Origin: a virus | DNA: 24,909 nucleotides | Strand: one strand, 5' to 3' | Virus record (IMG/VR): IMGVR_UViG_3300042507_003349 | Span: 1 to 24,909 of that record | Part shown: piece after piece, positions 2,753-24,826 of the stretch | How positions within the stretch are numbered: position 1 is the first letter of the stretch | Layout: every line of letters begins with the position of its first letter | Notes under the pieces: generated by a model | What the model was told of the DNA's origin: nothing | Seen by the model: only the letters and a program-made list of their open reading frames with translations | Database searches by the model: none | Translations under genes and position numbers: made by a program

Positions 2753-3218
2753 CGGGGCAGGGTGCTGGTATGTTGTTCCTGAAGGTCACCGTCATCCGTG
2801 CGCCGGTCGTCAGGCGCCCCGGCTCATCCCACAGCGCCGTCAGCGTCGGGCTGGTCTCCACATCGAGGTCGATGGTCACACCTTGGTAGGTGGCGTTGTC
2901 CAAAATGTAGAGCTGCCGGAACCGGTAGAAGCACTGACGTGCCACCGCCTCCATCCGCTCGTAAGCCTCATCCCTCTGGTCGCTGGTCCTGTCGCTGTCG
3001 GTGTCGTCGACGAACACCACGTCAAGGCCGAAGGTGTCAAAGCTGACATCTCCCTCGATGATGACCCCAGTGGTAGGAGGCTTCCAGATGCAGGCAGGGT
3101 AGGACAGGTCGTGGTCCATGTCCAGCGCCGCCGTCCAGTCGGACAGCCACGACACTCCCAAGATGTGGCTCTCCACCACACCCTTGAACAGCTCCCGGAT
3201 GATGTCGACGCCAACCAT
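2736..3218 (-). CDS. Hypothetical phage structural/neck protein, 160 aa
   Basis: ATG 3218 gives MVGVDIIRELFKGVVESHIL. A TTG eight codons upstream (3242) would also be in frame, but I prefer the ATG because the residues from there look like a normal amphipathic N-terminus. The protein is acidic, with a central DVVFVDDTDSDRTSDQRDEA segment and a C-terminal half rich in beta strands (RLTTGARMTVTFRNN). No catalytic motif or membrane segment is visible. It follows the frameshift gene and precedes a gp10-like protein, so a role in the head-tail junction is plausible. I do not recognise the family. Confidence 0.7.
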   Translation of the reverse strand: MVGVDIIRELFKGVVESHILGVSWLSDWTAALDMDHDLSYPACIWKPPTTGVIIEGDVSFDTFGLDVVFVDDTDSDRTSDQRDEAYERMEAVARQCFYRFRQLYILDNATYQGVTIDLDVETSPTLTALWDEPGRLTTGARMTVTFRNNIPAPCPDGFFS

Positions 3219-4123: not shown

Positions 4124-5481
4124 GAGATGCTCTTGCGTATGTTGTCGACGAAGGCCGTGCGGCGGTGCCTCTGCCCCTTGGCGCGAAGGTAGTCGGAGCC
4201 GACCACATCACCGCGCAGCTCGAGCACCATCCTCATCATCATCGCATCGGCGAAGTCGGGTGAACGCCCGAGACCCTCCTTGACCTTGTCCTTGCCGAGG
4301 ATGTGCAGCTTTGTGTCGCTGTTCACCTTGTCCCGCTTGACCCACCGCAGCTCGGTGCTGACCTCCTCATGCCACACGTCAGGCTCCCACGCCACCAGCC
4401 CATCGTTGACGTGCGCCGCCAGCTCATAGCTGCACTGCGCCTTGAGGTTTTGGTACTCGCCCTTGCCGATGACCTTGCCGCCACCCTTGAAGGCGACGCA
4501 CCCGGGGAGCAGGTCCACCACGCCACCGCCGATGCCGTCGTCGTCCACCACGATGCGTGACCGTGCGACGCCCTCCTGCTCGGCGAGCTGGCGGATGGCC
4601 GCAGCGGCCTCGGTGATCGCGTTGCGGTCCATCACGGTGACATGGGCGATGCGCAGCCCCGACCACAACATGATGACCGTGCGGTCGCTGCCGTAGCGTG
4701 CGATGTCGGCGGTGATAGCCATCTTGCCCTCCGGGACATGGTCGGCGCTGAAGATGTCCATGATGGCGTCGGCGGCCATGAGGGCGTACGGGTCGTTGTC
4801 ATAGTCCCAGTTGCCGAGCAGCAGGCGCTCACGGTCGGGGCCTGTGAGGCGCTTGAGGTTGTCGATGTAGTGGGGGCTGATGTGGCTGTTGTCCGTCACA
4901 AGGGCCGGCACGAACGCACGGTGCGTGGGGAGACTGCCCTTGCGCCACGGGTCGTAGAAGTCCGTGAACACCCAGTTGCGTGCCGGGTTGCACGTCAGCA
5001 GCATCTTAGGCGTCAGGCCGAACTCGTCCAGCTTGTATCTGATGCGGGACCCCACGATGGCCTTGGCCTTGGCGGACACCTGGTTGGCCTCGTCGATGAA
5101 GGCGCCCGTGATCTCGAGGGAGCCGAGGTCGTCGAAGTTGGGGTCGGACGGGTAGGCGAACAGGTCCTTGAGGATGATGGTGGACTGGCCGAGGGCTATC
5201 TGGCCGGTCTGGGCGTTGTAGGTGTAGTGTTCACCGGCGCGGTATCCGTGCTGTGCGCAGACGTCGAAGAAGGAGTTGAGCGTGGTCTCCTTGAGTGTCT
5301 TGGCTACCGCCCTGCCCATGAGCCACCGGGAGCCGGGGTAGCGCAGGGCGTTGGTGAACAGCCACAGGGCACCGAGCCACGACTTGCCGCCGCCTGCCGC
5401 TCCTCCATACAACACCTCGCTGTGCGTGGTGTCCTCAAGGTATCGCCATGCCAGACCCTGCTTAGGACTGAGGTCCGCCAC
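4120..5481 (-). CDS. terL: Terminase large subunit (ATPase plus nuclease)
   Basis: The 453-residue protein is the DNA-packaging motor that cuts concatemers and pumps DNA into proheads. Walker A is GGAAGGGKS at residues 26-34; Walker B is AFIDEA at 127-132. The ATPase coupling region follows (LLTCNPARN, 161-169). The C-terminal RNase H-fold nuclease shows acidic residues at ADIARYGSDR (259, 266), VVDDDGIGGG (313-315) and RSPDFADA (409, 412). The start is a GTG at 5481, 20 nt inside the upstream gene; there is no ATG upstream before a stop. The GTG lies within a 48-bp segment that copies an internal part of this same gene (see repeats). Length is normal for the family. Confidence 0.95.
   Translation of the reverse strand: MADLSPKQGLAWRYLEDTTHSEVLYGGAAGGGKSWLGALWLFTNALRYPGSRWLMGRAVAKTLKETTLNSFFDVCAQHGYRAGEHYTYNAQTGQIALGQSTIILKDLFAYPSDPNFDDLGSLEITGAFIDEANQVSAKAKAIVGSRIRYKLDEFGLTPKMLLTCNPARNWVFTDFYDPWRKGSLPTHRAFVPALVTDNSHISPHYIDNLKRLTGPDRERLLLGNWDYDNDPYALMAADAIMDIFSADHVPEGKMAITADIARYGSDRTVIMLWSGLRIAHVTVMDRNAITEAAAAIRQLAEQEGVARSRIVVDDDGIGGGVVDLLPGCVAFKGGGKVIGKGEYQNLKAQCSYELAAHVNDGLVAWEPDVWHEEVSTELRWVKRDKVNSDTKLHILGKDKVKEGLGRSPDFADAMMMRMVLELRGDVVGSDYLRAKGQRHRRTAFVDNIRKSIS
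4943..4990 (-). repeat. Internal terminase segment duplicated at the gene start (copy A)
   Basis: This 48-nt stretch encodes terminase residues PARNWVFTDFYDPWR (166-180) and is the native copy. It matches 5476-5523 at 44 of 48 positions in the same orientation, about 530 bp apart. Confidence 0.8.
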
Positions 5482-5707
5482 GGGTCGTAGAAGTCGGTGA
5501 ACACCCCGTTGCGTGCTGGGCTGGAGGCCTTGACTCGATGTTTTTCACCAGCTCCTTGCAGCATGCCTCGACGGTGTCCCCAAGGCCGCCCATGCTCACC
5601 ACCTCCCTGACCATCATCATGCTGGCCGGGTGGTAGACAGTGACGCACATAGCCTCGACGGTGATGCTGGCACCGGCTTCGACGGCTTGCTCTCTCCAGC
5701 TCTTCAT
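5462..5707 (-). CDS. Hypothetical protein upstream of terminase, 81 aa
   Basis: ATG 5707 overlaps the upstream stop as ATGA. The product starts MKSWREQAVEAGASITVEAM and continues through a Met-rich helix (ASMMMVREVVSMGG) and a Cys pair (EACCKELVKN). Its last 20 or so residues (from about RPPAQHA) are low complexity. They come from reading the terminase-like duplicate in another frame, so the C-terminus looks recently rewritten. The stop lies 20 nt inside the terminase gene. Its location between a small-terminase candidate and TerL suggests a packaging-region accessory protein. No family recognised. Confidence 0.6.
   Translation of the reverse strand: MKSWREQAVEAGASITVEAMCVTVYHPASMMMVREVVSMGGLGDTVEACCKELVKNIESRPPAQHATGCSPTSTTRGGPQS
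5476..5523 (-). repeat. Terminase-derived duplicate spanning the terminase start codon (copy B)
   Basis: Copy B differs from copy A by four substitutions. In one frame it still spells PARNGVFTDFYDPWR, but that frame is neither the frame of the upstream 81-aa gene nor that of the terminase. It contains the GTG used as the terminase start. It looks like a short duplicative recombination scar. Confidence 0.75.
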
Positions 5708-17773: not shown

Positions 17774-18045
17774 GGCCGGATGGATGGGAAGTTGAAGTGG
17801 TCTGGCATGGTCGGGCGCTGGCGGATGCTGCACACGATGCCGTCGACGTCACCGTCGAGGCGGTCGATGGCCTGCGCCAGCTCGTTGATGGCGTCCATCA
17901 CATCGCGGGTGACATGCAGGAGGTCGGTGTGCGTCCCGAACTGTTCCTCTTCGGTTTTGGCGATTTCGATTGCCTTGGCGTGGTCTTCTGCGCTGATGAT
18001 GTCCGACAGGAGCATGTGCAGCTTTTCTTTGGTGGTGTGGCTCAT
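17770..18045 (-). CDS. Hypothetical helical protein, 91 aa
   Basis: The start ATG 18045 overlaps the previous stop (ATGA); the longer frame upstream is a shadow of that gene. The product begins MSHTTKEKLHMLLSDIISAE, then an acidic helix (KAIEIAKTEEEQFGTH) and a long amphipathic helix VTRDVMDAINELAQAIDRLD. Likely a small coiled-coil protein. No family recognised; a member of the early small-gene island. Confidence 0.7.
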   Translation of the reverse strand: MSHTTKEKLHMLLSDIISAEDHAKAIEIAKTEEEQFGTHTDLLHVTRDVMDAINELAQAIDRLDGDVDGIVCSIRQRPTMPDHFNFPSIRP

Positions 18046-18242
18046 TTGGCTTGAAGGTAGCATTCGTTGAGTGTGACGGTGTATCCGGCGTCTTCGATGA
18101 TCTTGCACAGGATGTCGAGTTCGGTCTCCTCGGTCTCCTGGATGGTCTCTTGGGTGGTGTCAGTCGGTCGGCTGATGGTTAGCTGTGCGGTGAAGTCTAC
18201 TGGGTATCGTGCGGTGTTGGGCCAAGCTGGATCGTATGACAT
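18042..18242 (-). CDS. Small acidic protein, 66 aa (MSYDPAWP family start)
   Basis: It begins MSYDPAWPNTARYPVDFTAQ. The first eight residues match those of the otherwise different protein at 18698-18907 (MSYNPAWP). The middle is Thr/Glu-rich (TDTTQETIQETEETELDILC) and the end is KIIEDAGYTVTLNECYLQAK. It follows a 53-bp hairpin element and an A/C-rich leader with no Shine-Dalgarno sequence. No function recognised. Confidence 0.65.
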   Translation of the reverse strand: MSYDPAWPNTARYPVDFTAQLTISRPTDTTQETIQETEETELDILCKIIEDAGYTVTLNECYLQAK

Positions 18243-18268
18243 GTGTGTGTGTTGGTTGGTTGTGTGGT

Positions 18269-18321
18269 TAGGTCCGGCCCGCTCCCTTGCAACTTAAAGG
18301 ACTATGGGGGAGCGGGTCCGG
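18269..18321. repeat. 53-bp hairpin element, copy 1
   Basis: One of three identical 53-bp copies. CCCGCTCCC (18276-18284) pairs perfectly with GGGAGCGGG (18306-18314) around a 21-nt loop that includes CAACTTAAAGG. GGTCCGG-type arms extend the stem imperfectly. It sits between the 62-aa and 66-aa genes, starting about ten bases after the upstream stop. Confidence 0.85.
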
Positions 18322-18331
18322 CCTGTGTGGT

Positions 18332-18520
18332 TTAGGCGTTTGCTTGCTTGCGGTATTCGGTCAGATACTTGTCTGCTCCTTTCTGTGTACGGTATGGCTT
18401 GGACAGAAACTCAACATCGCCATCGCCGTAGCTAAAAATGGCAAAGAACACTTCGCCCATGTGGTACACAAAGTATCCGCGGTTCCCGTTCTTCTCTTTG
18501 TTGGTGATTGTGGTGTTCAT
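18332..18520 (-). CDS. Hypothetical small protein, 62 aa
   Basis: It begins MNTTITNKEKNGNRGYFVYH and continues MGEVFFAIFSYGDGDVEFLS, with a Lys/Arg/Gln-rich C-terminus (KGADKYLTEYRKQANA). The alternating hydrophobics suggest a small beta-sheet plus helix. It is driven by one of the two duplicated promoters (18547-18576), with a predicted leader of about 22 nt, and its stop is followed by hairpin copy 1. AT content is higher than in the late genes. No family recognised. Confidence 0.7.
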   Translation of the reverse strand: MNTTITNKEKNGNRGYFVYHMGEVFFAIFSYGDGDVEFLSKPYRTQKGADKYLTEYRKQANA

Positions 18521-18544
18521 GTGTGTGTTGTTGTTCGTTGATGG

Positions 18545-18608
18545 GACAAATGTAGGCCAATAAATGGCCCGCGCAACATCTACCCCTAATTTAGAATCAG
18601 TCTAAATA
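18545..18608. repeat. 64-bp promoter module, copy A
   Basis: Matches 19395-19458 at 63 of 64 positions. On the minus strand it holds an inverted repeat ATTTAGA-N5-TCTAAAT (18589-18607), the -33 and -7 elements and a GGCC-N7-GGCC palindrome in the spacer. The 17 bp just downstream are also largely shared. Confidence 0.85.
18547..18576 (-). promoter_or_regulatory. Bacteroidota-type promoter A with operator-like palindrome
   Basis: TTG (18576-18574, within TGTTG), a 19-nt spacer, then TACATTTG (18554-18547). The spacer contains GGCCAATAAATGGCC (18555-18569). The predicted start near 18542 gives a 22-nt leader to the 62-aa gene. Confidence 0.65.
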
Positions 18609-18616
18609 GTGCCTCG

Positions 18617-18669
18617 GGTCCGGCCCGCTCCCTTGCAACTTAAAGGACTATGGGGGAGCGGGTCCGGCC
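18617..18669. repeat. 53-bp hairpin element, copy 2
   Basis: Identical to the copies at 18269 and 18938. It separates the 69-aa membrane gene (stop 18698) from promoter module A. Confidence 0.85.
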
Positions 18670-18697
18670 TCAGTCCCCTCTCTTCGTTCTGGGTGGT

Positions 18698-18907
18698 CTA
18701 CTTGGGATTGTACGTATAAGCAGTATCCACTCCCTCCGGCCCAACAGTAACCGTGTAGCTTACCTTGCCTGACCGGCAATCGGCTATACCCTTGGTGTAG
18801 GCGGTGTTGGGGGCAGTGACCGTTGCCATCATGGTGATCATCCCCATGATGAATCCCACGACCAGTCCTCCAAAAAAGTAGCCGGGCCAAGCGGGGTTGT
18901 AGCTCAT
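18698..18907 (-). CDS. Small membrane protein, 69 aa (MSYNPAWP family start)
   Basis: MSYNPAWPGYFFGGLVVGFI opens a transmembrane helix of about 20 residues (roughly 9-30). A polar tail follows, probably outside the inner membrane (APNTAYTKGIADCRSGKVSY, ending AYTYNPK). The first eight residues resemble those of the soluble protein at 18042-18242, and both genes follow the same hairpin and A/C-rich leader. It may act at the host envelope, for example in superinfection exclusion, but there is no direct evidence. Confidence 0.65.
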   Translation of the reverse strand: MSYNPAWPGYFFGGLVVGFIMGMITMMATVTAPNTAYTKGIADCRSGKVSYTVTVGPEGVDTAYTYNPK

Positions 18908-18934
18908 GTTCGTGTTGGTTGGTTGTTGGTGTGG

Positions 18935-19195
18935 TTAGGTCCGGCCCGCTCCCTTGCAACTTAAAGGACTATGGGGGAGCGGGTCCGGCCTGTGTTGTTT
19001 AGGCAAGCAGATTGGGTACTCCGGCAGATGTTGCCACCACTCAATGTGCTGCATCTCAGATTTGCGGTCGTGGTCAACCCACACATCACCTGTAAACCGC
19101 GCAATAGCGTAGGGCGGTTGGCAATACTTGGCGTGAACCAGTACGTACTCGTTCACCTTTGGCAATGATTCTGATATATGCTTCCAGTCGTTCAA
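18935..19195 (-). CDS. DUF551-like protein, 86 aa, with repeat-encoded tail
   Basis: Starts at TTG 19195 overlapping the previous stop (TTGA); no ATG precedes the conserved region. NDWKHISESLPKVNEYVLVH, VWVDHDRKSEMQHIEWWQHL and PEYP match the DUF551 pattern 'W..v...LP...e.VLv...W...H.mplPe'. That domain is common in phages, function unknown. The normal end would be near PEYP. Here the frame continues about 28 residues, the last 18 encoded by hairpin copy 3. A one-base shift would restore a GCC-TAA stop like that of the 62-aa gene. Confidence 0.7.
   Translation of the reverse strand: MNDWKHISESLPKVNEYVLVHAKYCQPPYAIARFTGDVWVDHDRKSEMQHIEWWQHLPEYPICLPKQHRPDPLPHSPLSCKGAGRT
18938..18990. repeat. 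53-bp hairpin element, copy 3
   Basis: Identical to copies 1 and 2. It lies within the 3' end of the DUF551-like reading frame and 30 bp before the start of the 69-aa gene. The flanking sequence toward the next gene (plus-strand GTGGTTAGG) is also shared with copy 1. Confidence 0.85.
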
Positions 19196-19371
19196 AACAA
19201 CTCAGGGTATTGAGCCACCACTTCAGTAATCCTAGCAACTTCCGAAACATAATCGGCAAGAAGGTTGCTGTATTCCTTTGCCTCCCAAGGCTGAAGTTCG
19301 CTGGACTGCAATGCTTCGTTGCAATAGGCGATGCAATTCTTGAGGCTGGTGATTTGTTCGTTGGCGTTCAT
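19192..19371 (-). CDS. Small helical protein, 59 aa
   Basis: ATG 19371 (MNANEQITSLKNCIAYCNEA) is chosen; the longer frame would run back into promoter B. The product is one or two helices, LQSSELQPWEAKEYSNLLAD, ending ITEVVAQYPELF. The leader is A/C-rich (CAACGAACAACAACAC) with no Shine-Dalgarno sequence. It is the first gene after promoter module B. No family recognised. Confidence 0.7.
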   Translation of the reverse strand: MNANEQITSLKNCIAYCNEALQSSELQPWEAKEYSNLLADYVSEVARITEVVAQYPELF

Positions 19372-19394
19372 GGCGTGTTGTTGTTCGTTGACCT

Positions 19395-19458
19395 GACAAA
19401 TGTAGGCCAATAAATGGCCCGCACAACATCTACCCCTAATTTAGAATCAGTCTAAATA
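19395..19458. repeat. 64-bp promoter module, copy B
   Basis: Second copy of the module at 18545-18608, one mismatch. It overlaps the 3' end and stop codon of the 52-aa membrane protein gene. The inverted repeat ATTTAGA-N5-TCTAAAT is at 19439-19457. Confidence 0.85.
19397..19426 (-). promoter_or_regulatory. Bacteroidota-type promoter B with operator-like palindrome
   Basis: TTG (19426-19424), a 19-nt spacer, and TACATTTG (19404-19397). GGCCAATAAATGGCC lies at 19405-19419 in the spacer. The predicted start near 19392 gives a leader of about 21 nt to the 59-aa gene. Confidence 0.65.
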
Positions 19459-19774: not shown

Positions 19775-19792
19775 TATGAACGAAACGACAAA
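19763..19792 (-). promoter_or_regulatory. Bacteroidota-type promoter for the RHH operon
   Basis: TTTG (19792-19789), an 18-nt spacer and TATATTTG (19770-19763), a full match to the consensus. It fills the gap after the zinc-ribbon gene. The predicted start lies within a few bases of ATG 19758, so the mRNA would be nearly leaderless. Confidence 0.7.
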
Positions 19793-22284: not shown

Positions 22285-22586
22285 AGGTCCATCAGGTTGA
22301 TGTCGGGGCTGGGTATCCACGGCACATCGCTATGCCGCAGCACCGTGCAGGGCAGGATGGCTGCGCTGAACTTGTCGAATGCGTCTGCGTAGATGCCTCC
22401 CTTGCCGACCTCTGCGAGGATGTCACAGGACAGGGTATATGCGCCATCGGAGAGCAGCACCGGACGCAGCGCGATGCGGCTATTATCGAACGCGCTCTCC
22501 ACGGTGTTAGCCTGTTCAGCCGACATCACCATCCACAGGTCGGTGACGTTGTCGGGCAGGTTGTTGATGATGTCTGATACTATCAT
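22281..22586 (-). CDS. Hypothetical virion-associated protein, 101 aa
   Basis: ATG 22586 overlaps the stop of the tail protein (ATGA). It begins MIVSDIINNLPDNVTDLWMV and is beta-rich and acidic (ALRPVLLSDGAYTLSCDILA), with no membrane segment. Its position directly after a long tail/receptor-binding protein suggests a tail-associated chaperone or fibre partner. No family recognised. Confidence 0.65.
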   Translation of the reverse strand: MIVSDIINNLPDNVTDLWMVMSAEQANTVESAFDNSRIALRPVLLSDGAYTLSCDILAEVGKGGIYADAFDKFSAAILPCTVLRHSDVPWIPSPDINLMDL

Positions 22587-24826
22587 GGCATGATGGCATC
22601 TACAGCGGTGAAGAATGTGGTCAGGCGGCTGTCAAGGTCTGCGAGCGTGATGCCTTCGCCGACATGGTAGAAGCGCATGCGTGCTGAGGTATAACCGAAG
22701 AAGCCACCACCAGCAGCCGTGGTGGTCACGAAGACCATGACGTTGCTGTTGTATGGCGTCTGGCTGGCTCTGGTGATGGAATTGTCAGACCCTGCCAGCC
22801 GTGCCGTAAAGCCTGTGCTGCTTGTGCGGCTCAATCCGACGTATCCTGTCGATGTGCCTCCGGCAATGCCATCAACGCTGGCGTTCCTGCTGCGGAAGCC
22901 TAACTGCGTATCATTTGGCGCGGTGCGACGAATGATGTGTGATGCGCCATTTTCAGCAGTTCCGGCGCCTATTGCAGCACCGCCAATCTGAAGCGCCGTG
23001 TGCAGCCACACGCCGATGGCTTGGTCGTCCTGCGAATCGGCGTTGTTGTTGCGGTTGGTGTTTAGATACTTGCTGGAGCCGTTGCCGACCAGTCCGGTCT
23101 TCCTGCTATAGTCACCGCTCACGAAGTTGAACACCGTCGGCTGCGGACCTTTGAGCGGCACAAAGGCCGCATCAAAGGTCCGCGCCACGCTCAACAGACC
23201 AACAGCCTTCAGTTTCGTCCATATGCCATCCGCCTTCAAGCCCGTGACAAGGTCGCACACAGCCTGCCGCACACCAACTTCAAGGAACTGCCCATCCAGC
23301 GCTTCAACACCTGATATCCACGCCTGTGCGTCAAGGTCGCAGGTGCTTGCCATATTCGCGTATTCGCGCTGGTCATCGTCCATGCAGTCGATGACCTCTG
23401 TCTCGATGTCGCCCGCTGCCACATCACCGATGAGGTCGCAAAGCGTCGGGACCACCCATACGCCACCGACGAGGCTGCCGACTGGGTTGCCGTCGCTATC
23501 CTCCACGTCCACATCAGCCGTGGCACCACAGGGGTCTGCCACCGTGCCATACGTCGTGCCGTTGATGGCGATGGTCAGGTCTGCACATGGTACTTCGTTG
23601 CCGCCGCAGTAGGCACCGATGGTAGCTTGTTGAACCGTCACGCTCGTCGCGCTCCAGTTCGCAAGCCATGGGAAGGTCTGACTTCCCAACGCAGCATCCA
23701 CATCGCTACCGGGCTTCACCAGCCTCCACCGCGTGCCGGTGTACTCAAGGTTGTGCGAGCCGTCCAACGTGTACACGTTGCGCCCGTTGAGCGTCCCCGT
23801 GATCAGGTAGGTTCCGGTCACGCTGCCACCGTCCTGCACATAGGCCGCGTTAAGAAGCGTGCCGCAGTCTAGGTTCTCGGTGTCGCCGCTGGGCACCGTG
23901 CCGACGGACAGGCCGTCAAAGGTGATGGTGCCATCGGGGGCGATGGGCACCGTGTCGTTCATCAGGTCCTCCGCCGTGACCTTGGCAGCGCCCACCACAT
24001 TGCCAAGGCTGTTGCGCAGGTCGGCATTTAAGATGGGGTCCGACGTCACAAGGTTGAGGCCATCAAAGCCGGTGTCGGTCAGGAATAGCGCCACGGGGGT
24101 GCCGCCCGCGTTTATATACGTCACATAGGTCTGCGGCAGGTTGTAGTTACTGCCGCTCGGCACCTGTGCCACGGTCAAAACGGTGTCGGTCGCCCGGATG
24201 GTGGCATCGGGCGCGAGCAGCGTAAGGTTCTCTCCGCAAGGGTCAGGCACTCTACCACTGTCCAGCTCATCATCGTTGGTGTTGACCAGCGAGTAGCTCA
24301 GGTCATCGCACGTCGGTATTACCCACACGCCGCCGACCAGCGAGCCTACGGCTGTACCATCCTGCTCAACGTCCACGGTAGCGATGGCACCGCAAGGGTC
24401 AGCGATGCTCGCATACGCCACACCATTGACGCGCACCGACAGCGGGTCGCACTCATCGCCATCGGTAGGGCACGTCTCCGTCCACCCGCCATCCGCCACG
24501 CCATCGCCGACCACGAAGATGTCGACATCCTTGACCAGCCTATTGGCCGAGGCGGGCACCAGGTTGATGCTGCTGGTCTGCTCGTAGATCTTGAGGTTCC
24601 AGTTGCCCGGAGGTGCCAGCAGGACCTCGCCATCCAGCGCCACCGGCGCAGAGGTCTCGGTGAACGTCAGGCTGATGAACGCACCACCGCTGTTGCCCGG
24701 CTCCACCACGCAGTAGGCGTTGCCACCGCGCTCGATATCGGTGAAGTGGAGCAGCCAGTAAGAGGGTGACAGCGTCACCCTTGCCATCACCACAAGGGTG
24801 TTGCTCGCTCCGCGTTCAATCTGCAC
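22583..24826 (-). CDS. Tail fibre / receptor-binding protein with internal duplication, 747 aa
   Basis: GTG 24826 is the likely start, overlapping the upstream gene's end by 11 bases; ATG at residue 14 is an alternative. An N-terminal beta-rich region (1-120) is followed by a Cys-containing module at 128-174 (VNGVAYASIADPCG..., GSLVGGVWVIPTC). The module recurs at 417-463 (INGTTYGTVADPCG..., GSLVGGVWVVPTLC). Between them are further Thr/Gly-rich beta segments. The C-terminal 200 residues (from FDAAFVPLKGPQPTVFNFVS) form a lectin-like beta domain ending in LADLDSRLTTFFTAVDAIMP, a layout typical of tail appendage tips. Exposed repeats and a terminal lectin-like domain suggest host binding. Confidence 0.8.
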   Translation of the reverse strand: MQIERGASNTLVVMARVTLSPSYWLLHFTDIERGGNAYCVVEPGNSGGAFISLTFTETSAPVALDGEVLLAPPGNWNLKIYEQTSSINLVPASANRLVKDVDIFVVGDGVADGGWTETCPTDGDECDPLSVRVNGVAYASIADPCGAIATVDVEQDGTAVGSLVGGVWVIPTCDDLSYSLVNTNDDELDSGRVPDPCGENLTLLAPDATIRATDTVLTVAQVPSGSNYNLPQTYVTYINAGGTPVALFLTDTGFDGLNLVTSDPILNADLRNSLGNVVGAAKVTAEDLMNDTVPIAPDGTITFDGLSVGTVPSGDTENLDCGTLLNAAYVQDGGSVTGTYLITGTLNGRNVYTLDGSHNLEYTGTRWRLVKPGSDVDAALGSQTFPWLANWSATSVTVQQATIGAYCGGNEVPCADLTIAINGTTYGTVADPCGATADVDVEDSDGNPVGSLVGGVWVVPTLCDLIGDVAAGDIETEVIDCMDDDQREYANMASTCDLDAQAWISGVEALDGQFLEVGVRQAVCDLVTGLKADGIWTKLKAVGLLSVARTFDAAFVPLKGPQPTVFNFVSGDYSRKTGLVGNGSSKYLNTNRNNNADSQDDQAIGVWLHTALQIGGAAIGAGTAENGASHIIRRTAPNDTQLGFRSRNASVDGIAGGTSTGYVGLSRTSSTGFTARLAGSDNSITRASQTPYNSNVMVFVTTTAAGGGFFGYTSARMRFYHVGEGITLADLDSRLTTFFTAVDAIMP

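Follow-up and report, generated by a model that had tools for sequence, protein, structure and literature searches.

A recurrent hairpin beside an exchangeable gene slot in phages of probable Bacteroidota hosts: a candidate intercistronic RNA element

The stretch of DNA analysed here (the window; 24,909 nt) is a 24.9-kb phage fragment that encodes a terminase, a VirE-type primase/helicase, a gp2.5-like ssDNA-binding protein and an endolysin, and the genes at issue are located on its minus strand. Between these genes lie three copies of a 53-bp element that are 100% identical (54 bp with one flanking base) and that are found on the minus strand, as are the genes. The features of the region are given below in the direction of transcription, with reference to three related IMG/VR records (L008, L013, and L014).

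19397-19458, minus strand: promoter P1, a TTTAGA-N5-TCTAAA inverted repeat followed by TTG-N19-TACATTTG, of the Bacteroidota sigma-ABfr type; bounds the first slot on its 5′ side
19192-19410, minus strand: slot ORF of 72 aa from the listed TTG start (phrog_9544 / phrog_7866), absent from this position in L008, L013, and L014
18935-19195, minus strand: slot ORF, DUF551-like, whose frame crosses hairpin copy 3
18938-18990, minus strand: hairpin copy 3, after the slot ORFs at 19192-19410 and 18935-19195 and before the MSYNPAWP gene
18698-18907, minus strand: MSYNPAWP ORF of 69 aa between copies 3 and 2, with first codons and leader like those of the MSYDPAWP gene
18617-18669, minus strand: hairpin copy 2, between the MSYNPAWP gene (18698-18907) and promoter P2
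18547-18608, minus strand: promoter P2, a duplicate of P1 (84 nt, 95%); bounds the second slot on its 5′ side
18332-18520, minus strand: slot ORF of 62 aa, with its stop codon just upstream of copy 1
18271-18323, minus strand: hairpin copy 1, between the ORF at 18332-18520 and the MSYDPAWP gene (18042-18242)
18243-18270, minus strand: A/C-rich leader (96% A+C) from copy 1 to the start codon, predicted to be unpaired
18042-18242, minus strand: MSYDPAWP gene of 66 aa, which follows the hairpin as a conserved neighbour in the window, L008, L013, and L014

In gene sense, the element reads GGCCGGACCCGCTCCCCCATAGTCCTTTAAGTTGCAAGGGAGCGGGCCGGACC. Structure prediction, which an earlier note on this DNA had proposed as a check, yields a hairpin on the gene-sense strand in which GG-CCGG-[A]-CCCGCUCCC pairs with GGGAGCGGG-CCGG-[A]-CC, giving a 15-bp stem with one unpaired A per arm and a 21-nt loop. 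The predicted folding energy of the element is approximately -29 to -32 kcal/mol on this strand (z -3.7 to -5.2). The earlier note had recognised the three identical 53-bp copies, with starts that were correct to about 2 bases, and the absence of a T-run, which holds on the sense strand. Its perfect 9-bp stem was too short: the fold has 15 pairs and, in addition, two unpaired As. Copies 1 and 3 also have their flanks in common (a 93-nt family, 95%), because the small genes behind them share a leader and their first codons (MSYDPAWP / MSYNPAWP). Copy 2 shares nothing with copies 1 and 3 beyond the element itself, and the 53 bp are therefore regarded as a real unit. A collapsed assembly repeat, which had been raised as an objection, is excluded because the flanks differ at each copy and because all three copies recur, at 100% identity, in a second IMG/VR record (L007/L010). 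Chance or an assembly artefact was rejected on the basis of the identical repeats, the second record and the covariation described below. A known RNA family was also rejected, as no Rfam family matches: there was no match at the gathering score in the window and, up to an E-value of 10, only CRISPR-DR36 was reported at the elements, with 14 bits where 38 are needed.

IMG/VR was scanned with loop patterns, stem patterns and one neighbouring protein. The phage in L007/L010 is 100% identical to that of the window and has three copies, and L008, L013/L011, and L014/L009 are 92-95% relatives of the window with one copy each. The element is also carried by L012 (38 kb), L024 (29 kb), and L015 (54 kb); L012 and L024 form one lineage (approximately 89% to each other) and L015 stands alone. 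IMG/VR thus yielded five distinct versions of the element in three phage lineages, with one to three copies per record, and the recurrence in related phages on which the earlier note had made its reading depend was found. The window has 3-7 ORF matches, mostly weak, to L012, L024, and L015, the proteins being mostly unrelated or less than 50% identical; the terminase and a large protein (22583-24826) share approximately 35-46% identity between the window and records of the other lineages. The alignment of L015 with the window extends essentially over the element only, and the element is therefore a discrete unit. It was absent from INPHARED and PLSDB in searches by loop pattern or sequence similarity, and was not found in GTDB species genomes, where the loop-pattern scan gave only two stemless chance matches. 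Exact loop matches without a stem in five further records (L019-L023, of which L021-L023 are from IMG/VR) were likewise set aside as chance. No copy is present in MW202828.1, the INPHARED record whose primase is closest (47%), and no description of the element was found in targeted searches of open-access papers. Judged by promoters and primase relatives, the hosts of the phages that bear the element are probably Bacteroidota.

Elsewhere in the window, a 48-bp direct repeat (92%; 4943-4990 and 5476-5523) consists of a piece of the terminase gene coding NPARNWVFTDFYDPWR, which is also present at the very start of the terminase ORF. A similar piece is present in another record (L017; 12287-12336). 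This repeat is possibly a recombination scar or a duplicated fragment.

The covariation alignment comprised the five distinct versions, among which two pairs vary. All 15 pairs are intact in every version (100% of cells paired), and the paired cells fall to 25-56% in controls with slid partners. Pair 13-41 is U-A, G-C or C-G, and pair 5-48 is G-C or A-U, both sides having changed in each; the covariation score was matched by 4 of 500 shuffles. In L015, four arm substitutions, two per arm, leave all pairs canonical (approximately 0.8% under a simple placement null). Compensatory changes that preserve the stem, as expected of a structured cis-RNA element, were thus found at two doubly changed pairs. 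The loop halves CCATAGT and GTTGCAA do not change in any of the three lineages, and neither do the bulged As; the middle of the loop varies, so that the loop, of 20-21 nt across versions, has the core CCAUAGU-N6/7-GUUGCAA in RNA. The total loop conservation that had been described holds among the copies of this phage but not in its relatives, where four loop positions differ. Selection, which had been offered beside recent copying as an explanation, is supported by the compensatory pair changes and by the invariant loop core in unrelated phages, for which recent copying alone does not account. On these comparisons, both the structure of the hairpin and selection on it are well supported. Template switching at inverted repeats (quasipalindrome correction) could yield paired changes without selection on structure; such correction, if unchecked, should also erase both bulged As, and their retention everywhere argues against it. 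A cruciform or ssDNA function would produce identical covariation.

The backbone of the window, L008, L013, and L014 (92-95%) aligns up to approximately the ATG behind the promoter and resumes at approximately the stop codon before the hairpin, and the ORF in between differs in each. The same slot pattern is found in L012 and L024, with a different promoter sequence and a different downstream gene. As judged from these alignments, the hairpin borders an exchangeable-ORF slot in two lineages and lies between two small genes in the third, in a near-fixed position and a fixed orientation. The slot ORF region of L008 is 91% identical to L012 over 214 nt, starting at the -7 box/leader and ending inside the ORF, and the hairpin of L008 is of its own lineage type despite the L012-like slot ORF (the recipient type was kept). 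By the same comparison, accessory ORFs are exchanged between phage lineages at the slot, the single traceable exchange having no crossover in the hairpin. The earlier proposal of a recombination hot spot that shuffles gene cassettes is thus borne out in that cassettes are shuffled beside the element, but not as regards the site, since the traced L008/L012 junctions are found in the promoter leader and inside the ORF. The L008 ORF itself (2838-3046; L012 reverse strand, 5285-5497) is a shortened relative of that of L012, with 91% DNA identity followed by an early stop. In a sequence of the L024 phage (L034, 1-1200), two tandem copies of the L012-type promoter precede one small ORF each; the two ORFs differ, and only the second has the hairpin behind it.

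Every copy is intergenic and in the same orientation as transcription, as would be expected of a structured cis-RNA element acting in untranslated space, the sole exception being copy 3, through which the upstream frame reads. The frame in question, the DUF551-like ORF (18935-19195), continues in frame across copy 3 to a stop codon immediately beyond it, as though an ORF had been fused out of register with the stop codon originally present. The distance from stop codon to hairpin is 8-20 nt for most copies and 29 nt for copy 2, which is located just before promoter P2 and so adjoins a promoter, not a gene directly. The leader between the hairpin and the next ATG comprises 84-96% A+C in five of the six examined (67% in L015), compared with 54% in the genome, and the leaders behind the hairpin in the window are predicted to be unpaired. 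Usually 20-40 nt separate the end of the hairpin from the ATG, and the hairpin is not paired with the ATG. In Flavobacterium johnsoniae, initiation occurs without a Shine-Dalgarno (SD) sequence and favours leaders with little structure and with A at key upstream positions (PMC6847099). Sense-strand promoters matching TTG-N18-20-TAnnTTTG were found in the window only at 19791, 19426 (P1), 18576 (P2), and 15802; they fit TTG-N19-TAnnTTTG, a pattern of Bacteroidota type. Because no consensus sense promoter is present between copy 1 and approximately 15.8 kb, read-through of the hairpin would be needed, and the genes of this interval appear to rely on transcription through it, unless off-consensus promoters exist. 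The TTTAGA-N5-TCTAAA repeats (18591-18608 and 19441-19458) are operator-like, just upstream of P2 and P1, and are also present before the same promoter in L008, L013 and, nearly, L014, and absent in L012.

We propose, with moderate confidence, that the hairpin may act in cis as an intercistronic RNA element, with a role in processing, stabilising or insulating mRNA at the exchangeable-gene slot. Of the options listed in the earlier note, an RNA processing or stability signal would be the best option, and protein binding may also play a part. In the mechanism that we infer, the hairpin would fold by itself within the polycistronic mRNA, and a host or phage factor, in the simplest case a nuclease or RNA-binding protein, would read its loop or bulges. 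The upstream cistron would gain a protected 3′ end and the downstream cistron a clean, unstructured A/C-rich 5′ leader, with the result that any ORF placed in the slot behind the fixed promoter would leave the following gene undisturbed. The invariant loop core suggests a trans-acting factor as a candidate. More tentatively, a factor that the hosts have in common may recognise the fixed loop, in which case the hairpin would be an undescribed phage RNA element that marks and insulates a plug-in slot, made up of a fixed promoter, an exchangeable ORF and the fixed hairpin itself, and whose spread has reached unrelated phages of Bacteroidota. Loop-loop dimers could form through the self-complementary UUGCAA of the loop, yet a palindrome of 6 nt is no rarity in a loop of 21 nt.

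Could the inverted repeat instead act in DNA, as a cassette boundary at which accessory ORFs are swapped by recombination or preferred crossover (cruciform, single-strand annealing)? The different ORFs between promoter and hairpin on 92-95% identical backbones would be explained, the window seems to hold a tandem duplication of promoter and hairpin units, and the phage encodes a protein of the gp2.5-like ssDNA-binding/annealing family (phrog_112). Such a boundary nonetheless seems unlikely, given that the junctions of the L008/L012 exchange fall outside a hairpin that kept its own type, and that a crossover site needs neither an orientation tied to transcription nor a conserved single-stranded loop. 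Neither tyrosine integrase (PF00589) nor Y1 transposase (PF01797) had a match in the six partial records. That no such transposase was found there also weighs against a mobile element of the REP/MITE kind, a small hairpin spread by copying and no more than tolerated. Such an origin would account for a discrete 53-bp unit in unrelated contexts and for the flank of copy 2, common to no other copy, but it is very improbable for an element with one to three copies per genome, always in the same sense and with paired changes kept, that is absent from host genomes by the loop-pattern scan. A REP or IS200-type hairpin was rejected for its lack of a PF01797 match in the six partial records and for the one to three copies per record, rather than many dispersed ones.

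A terminator or attenuator that lacks a U-tract, possibly dependent on Rho or another factor, and that would lower read-through from the slot gene to the next gene, is suggested by the strong GC stem behind stop codons, by copy 2 just before a promoter, and by the C-rich unstructured RNA behind the hairpin, which could suit Rho. Termination could at most be incomplete, since the downstream genes seem to be without a promoter of their own, and a plain terminator has no use for a conserved 21-nt loop; with the T-run also absent, we consider this role improbable. Full termination is unlikely because read-through seems to be required and there is no T-run. An intrinsic terminator was rejected, as no T-run follows the GC stem on the sense strand and no sense-strand terminator was called at the elements. 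The invariance of the loop core and bulged As would also suit a site at which an RNA-binding protein of phage or host, or an antisense RNA, controls downstream translation, like the coat-protein operators of RNA phages. We rate this as quite improbable: a gap of 20-40 nt usually separates the hairpin from the ATG, with which it does not pair; no binding protein shared by the three lineages emerged as a candidate; and a search of the rest of the window for 9-nt stretches complementary to the conserved loop ends gave none. For loop pairing elsewhere in the phage, only a 10-nt complement at approximately 14513 was found, which covers the variable middle of the loop and was not convincing.

As a candidate intercistronic processing, stabilising or insulating element, the hairpin would be an RNA signal in a phylum with poorly understood mRNA processing and SD-less translation. 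Its loop core on a covarying 15-bp stem offers a sequence handle for exchangeable accessory-gene slots in Bacteroidota phages, in which accessory genes are not easily recognised. Should the loop bind a host factor, the element would give direct access to that factor and serve as a useful insulator part for expression in Bacteroidota.

The early intercistronic RNase III sites of phage T7 are strong hairpins between early cistrons of one transcription unit. They resemble the hairpin described here in being strong intercistronic hairpins that need read-through, and its stem length is compatible with an RNase III intercistronic site; to our knowledge, a conserved long loop is not a feature of the T7 sites. 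Integron cassettes with attC sites have a promoter, an exchangeable ORF and a hairpin behind the ORF, with the core boxes RYYYAAC / GTTRRRY and an integron integrase. The promoter-ORF-hairpin order is the same, but the loop of the present hairpin is conserved where that of attC is variable, and the traced crossover lies outside the hairpin. An attC site was rejected, as the core boxes were absent from the element (read by eye) and PF00589 had no match in the six partial records.

Closest in placement, as phage-specific inverted repeats, are the SAS/ESAS of Cluster K mycobacteriophages, which are located just upstream of the starts of some non-structural genes and for which a role in translation was suggested (PMC3203893). 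ESAS occur mostly in one orientation, in wider-than-usual gaps and beside genes of different families, and SAS are essentially absent from the host (PMC3203893). The hairpin is not an ESAS: the arms of ESAS are imperfect and 17 bp long, their spacer varies from 4 to 13 bp, the 13-bp SAS is separate, and both sequence and host phylum differ (PMC3203893), whereas the hairpin has a 20-21-nt loop with a fixed core and no SAS. The 13-bp SAS GGGATAGGAGCCC, which by definition lies beside the start codon (PMC3203893), is absent between the hairpin and the ATG. The plastid intercistronic expression element (IEE) is short and makes stable, translatable monocistronic units from an operon, its cleavage having been shown experimentally (PMC2230500). 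No sequence relation between the present hairpin and the IEE is claimed; the likeness would lie in the proposed working principle.
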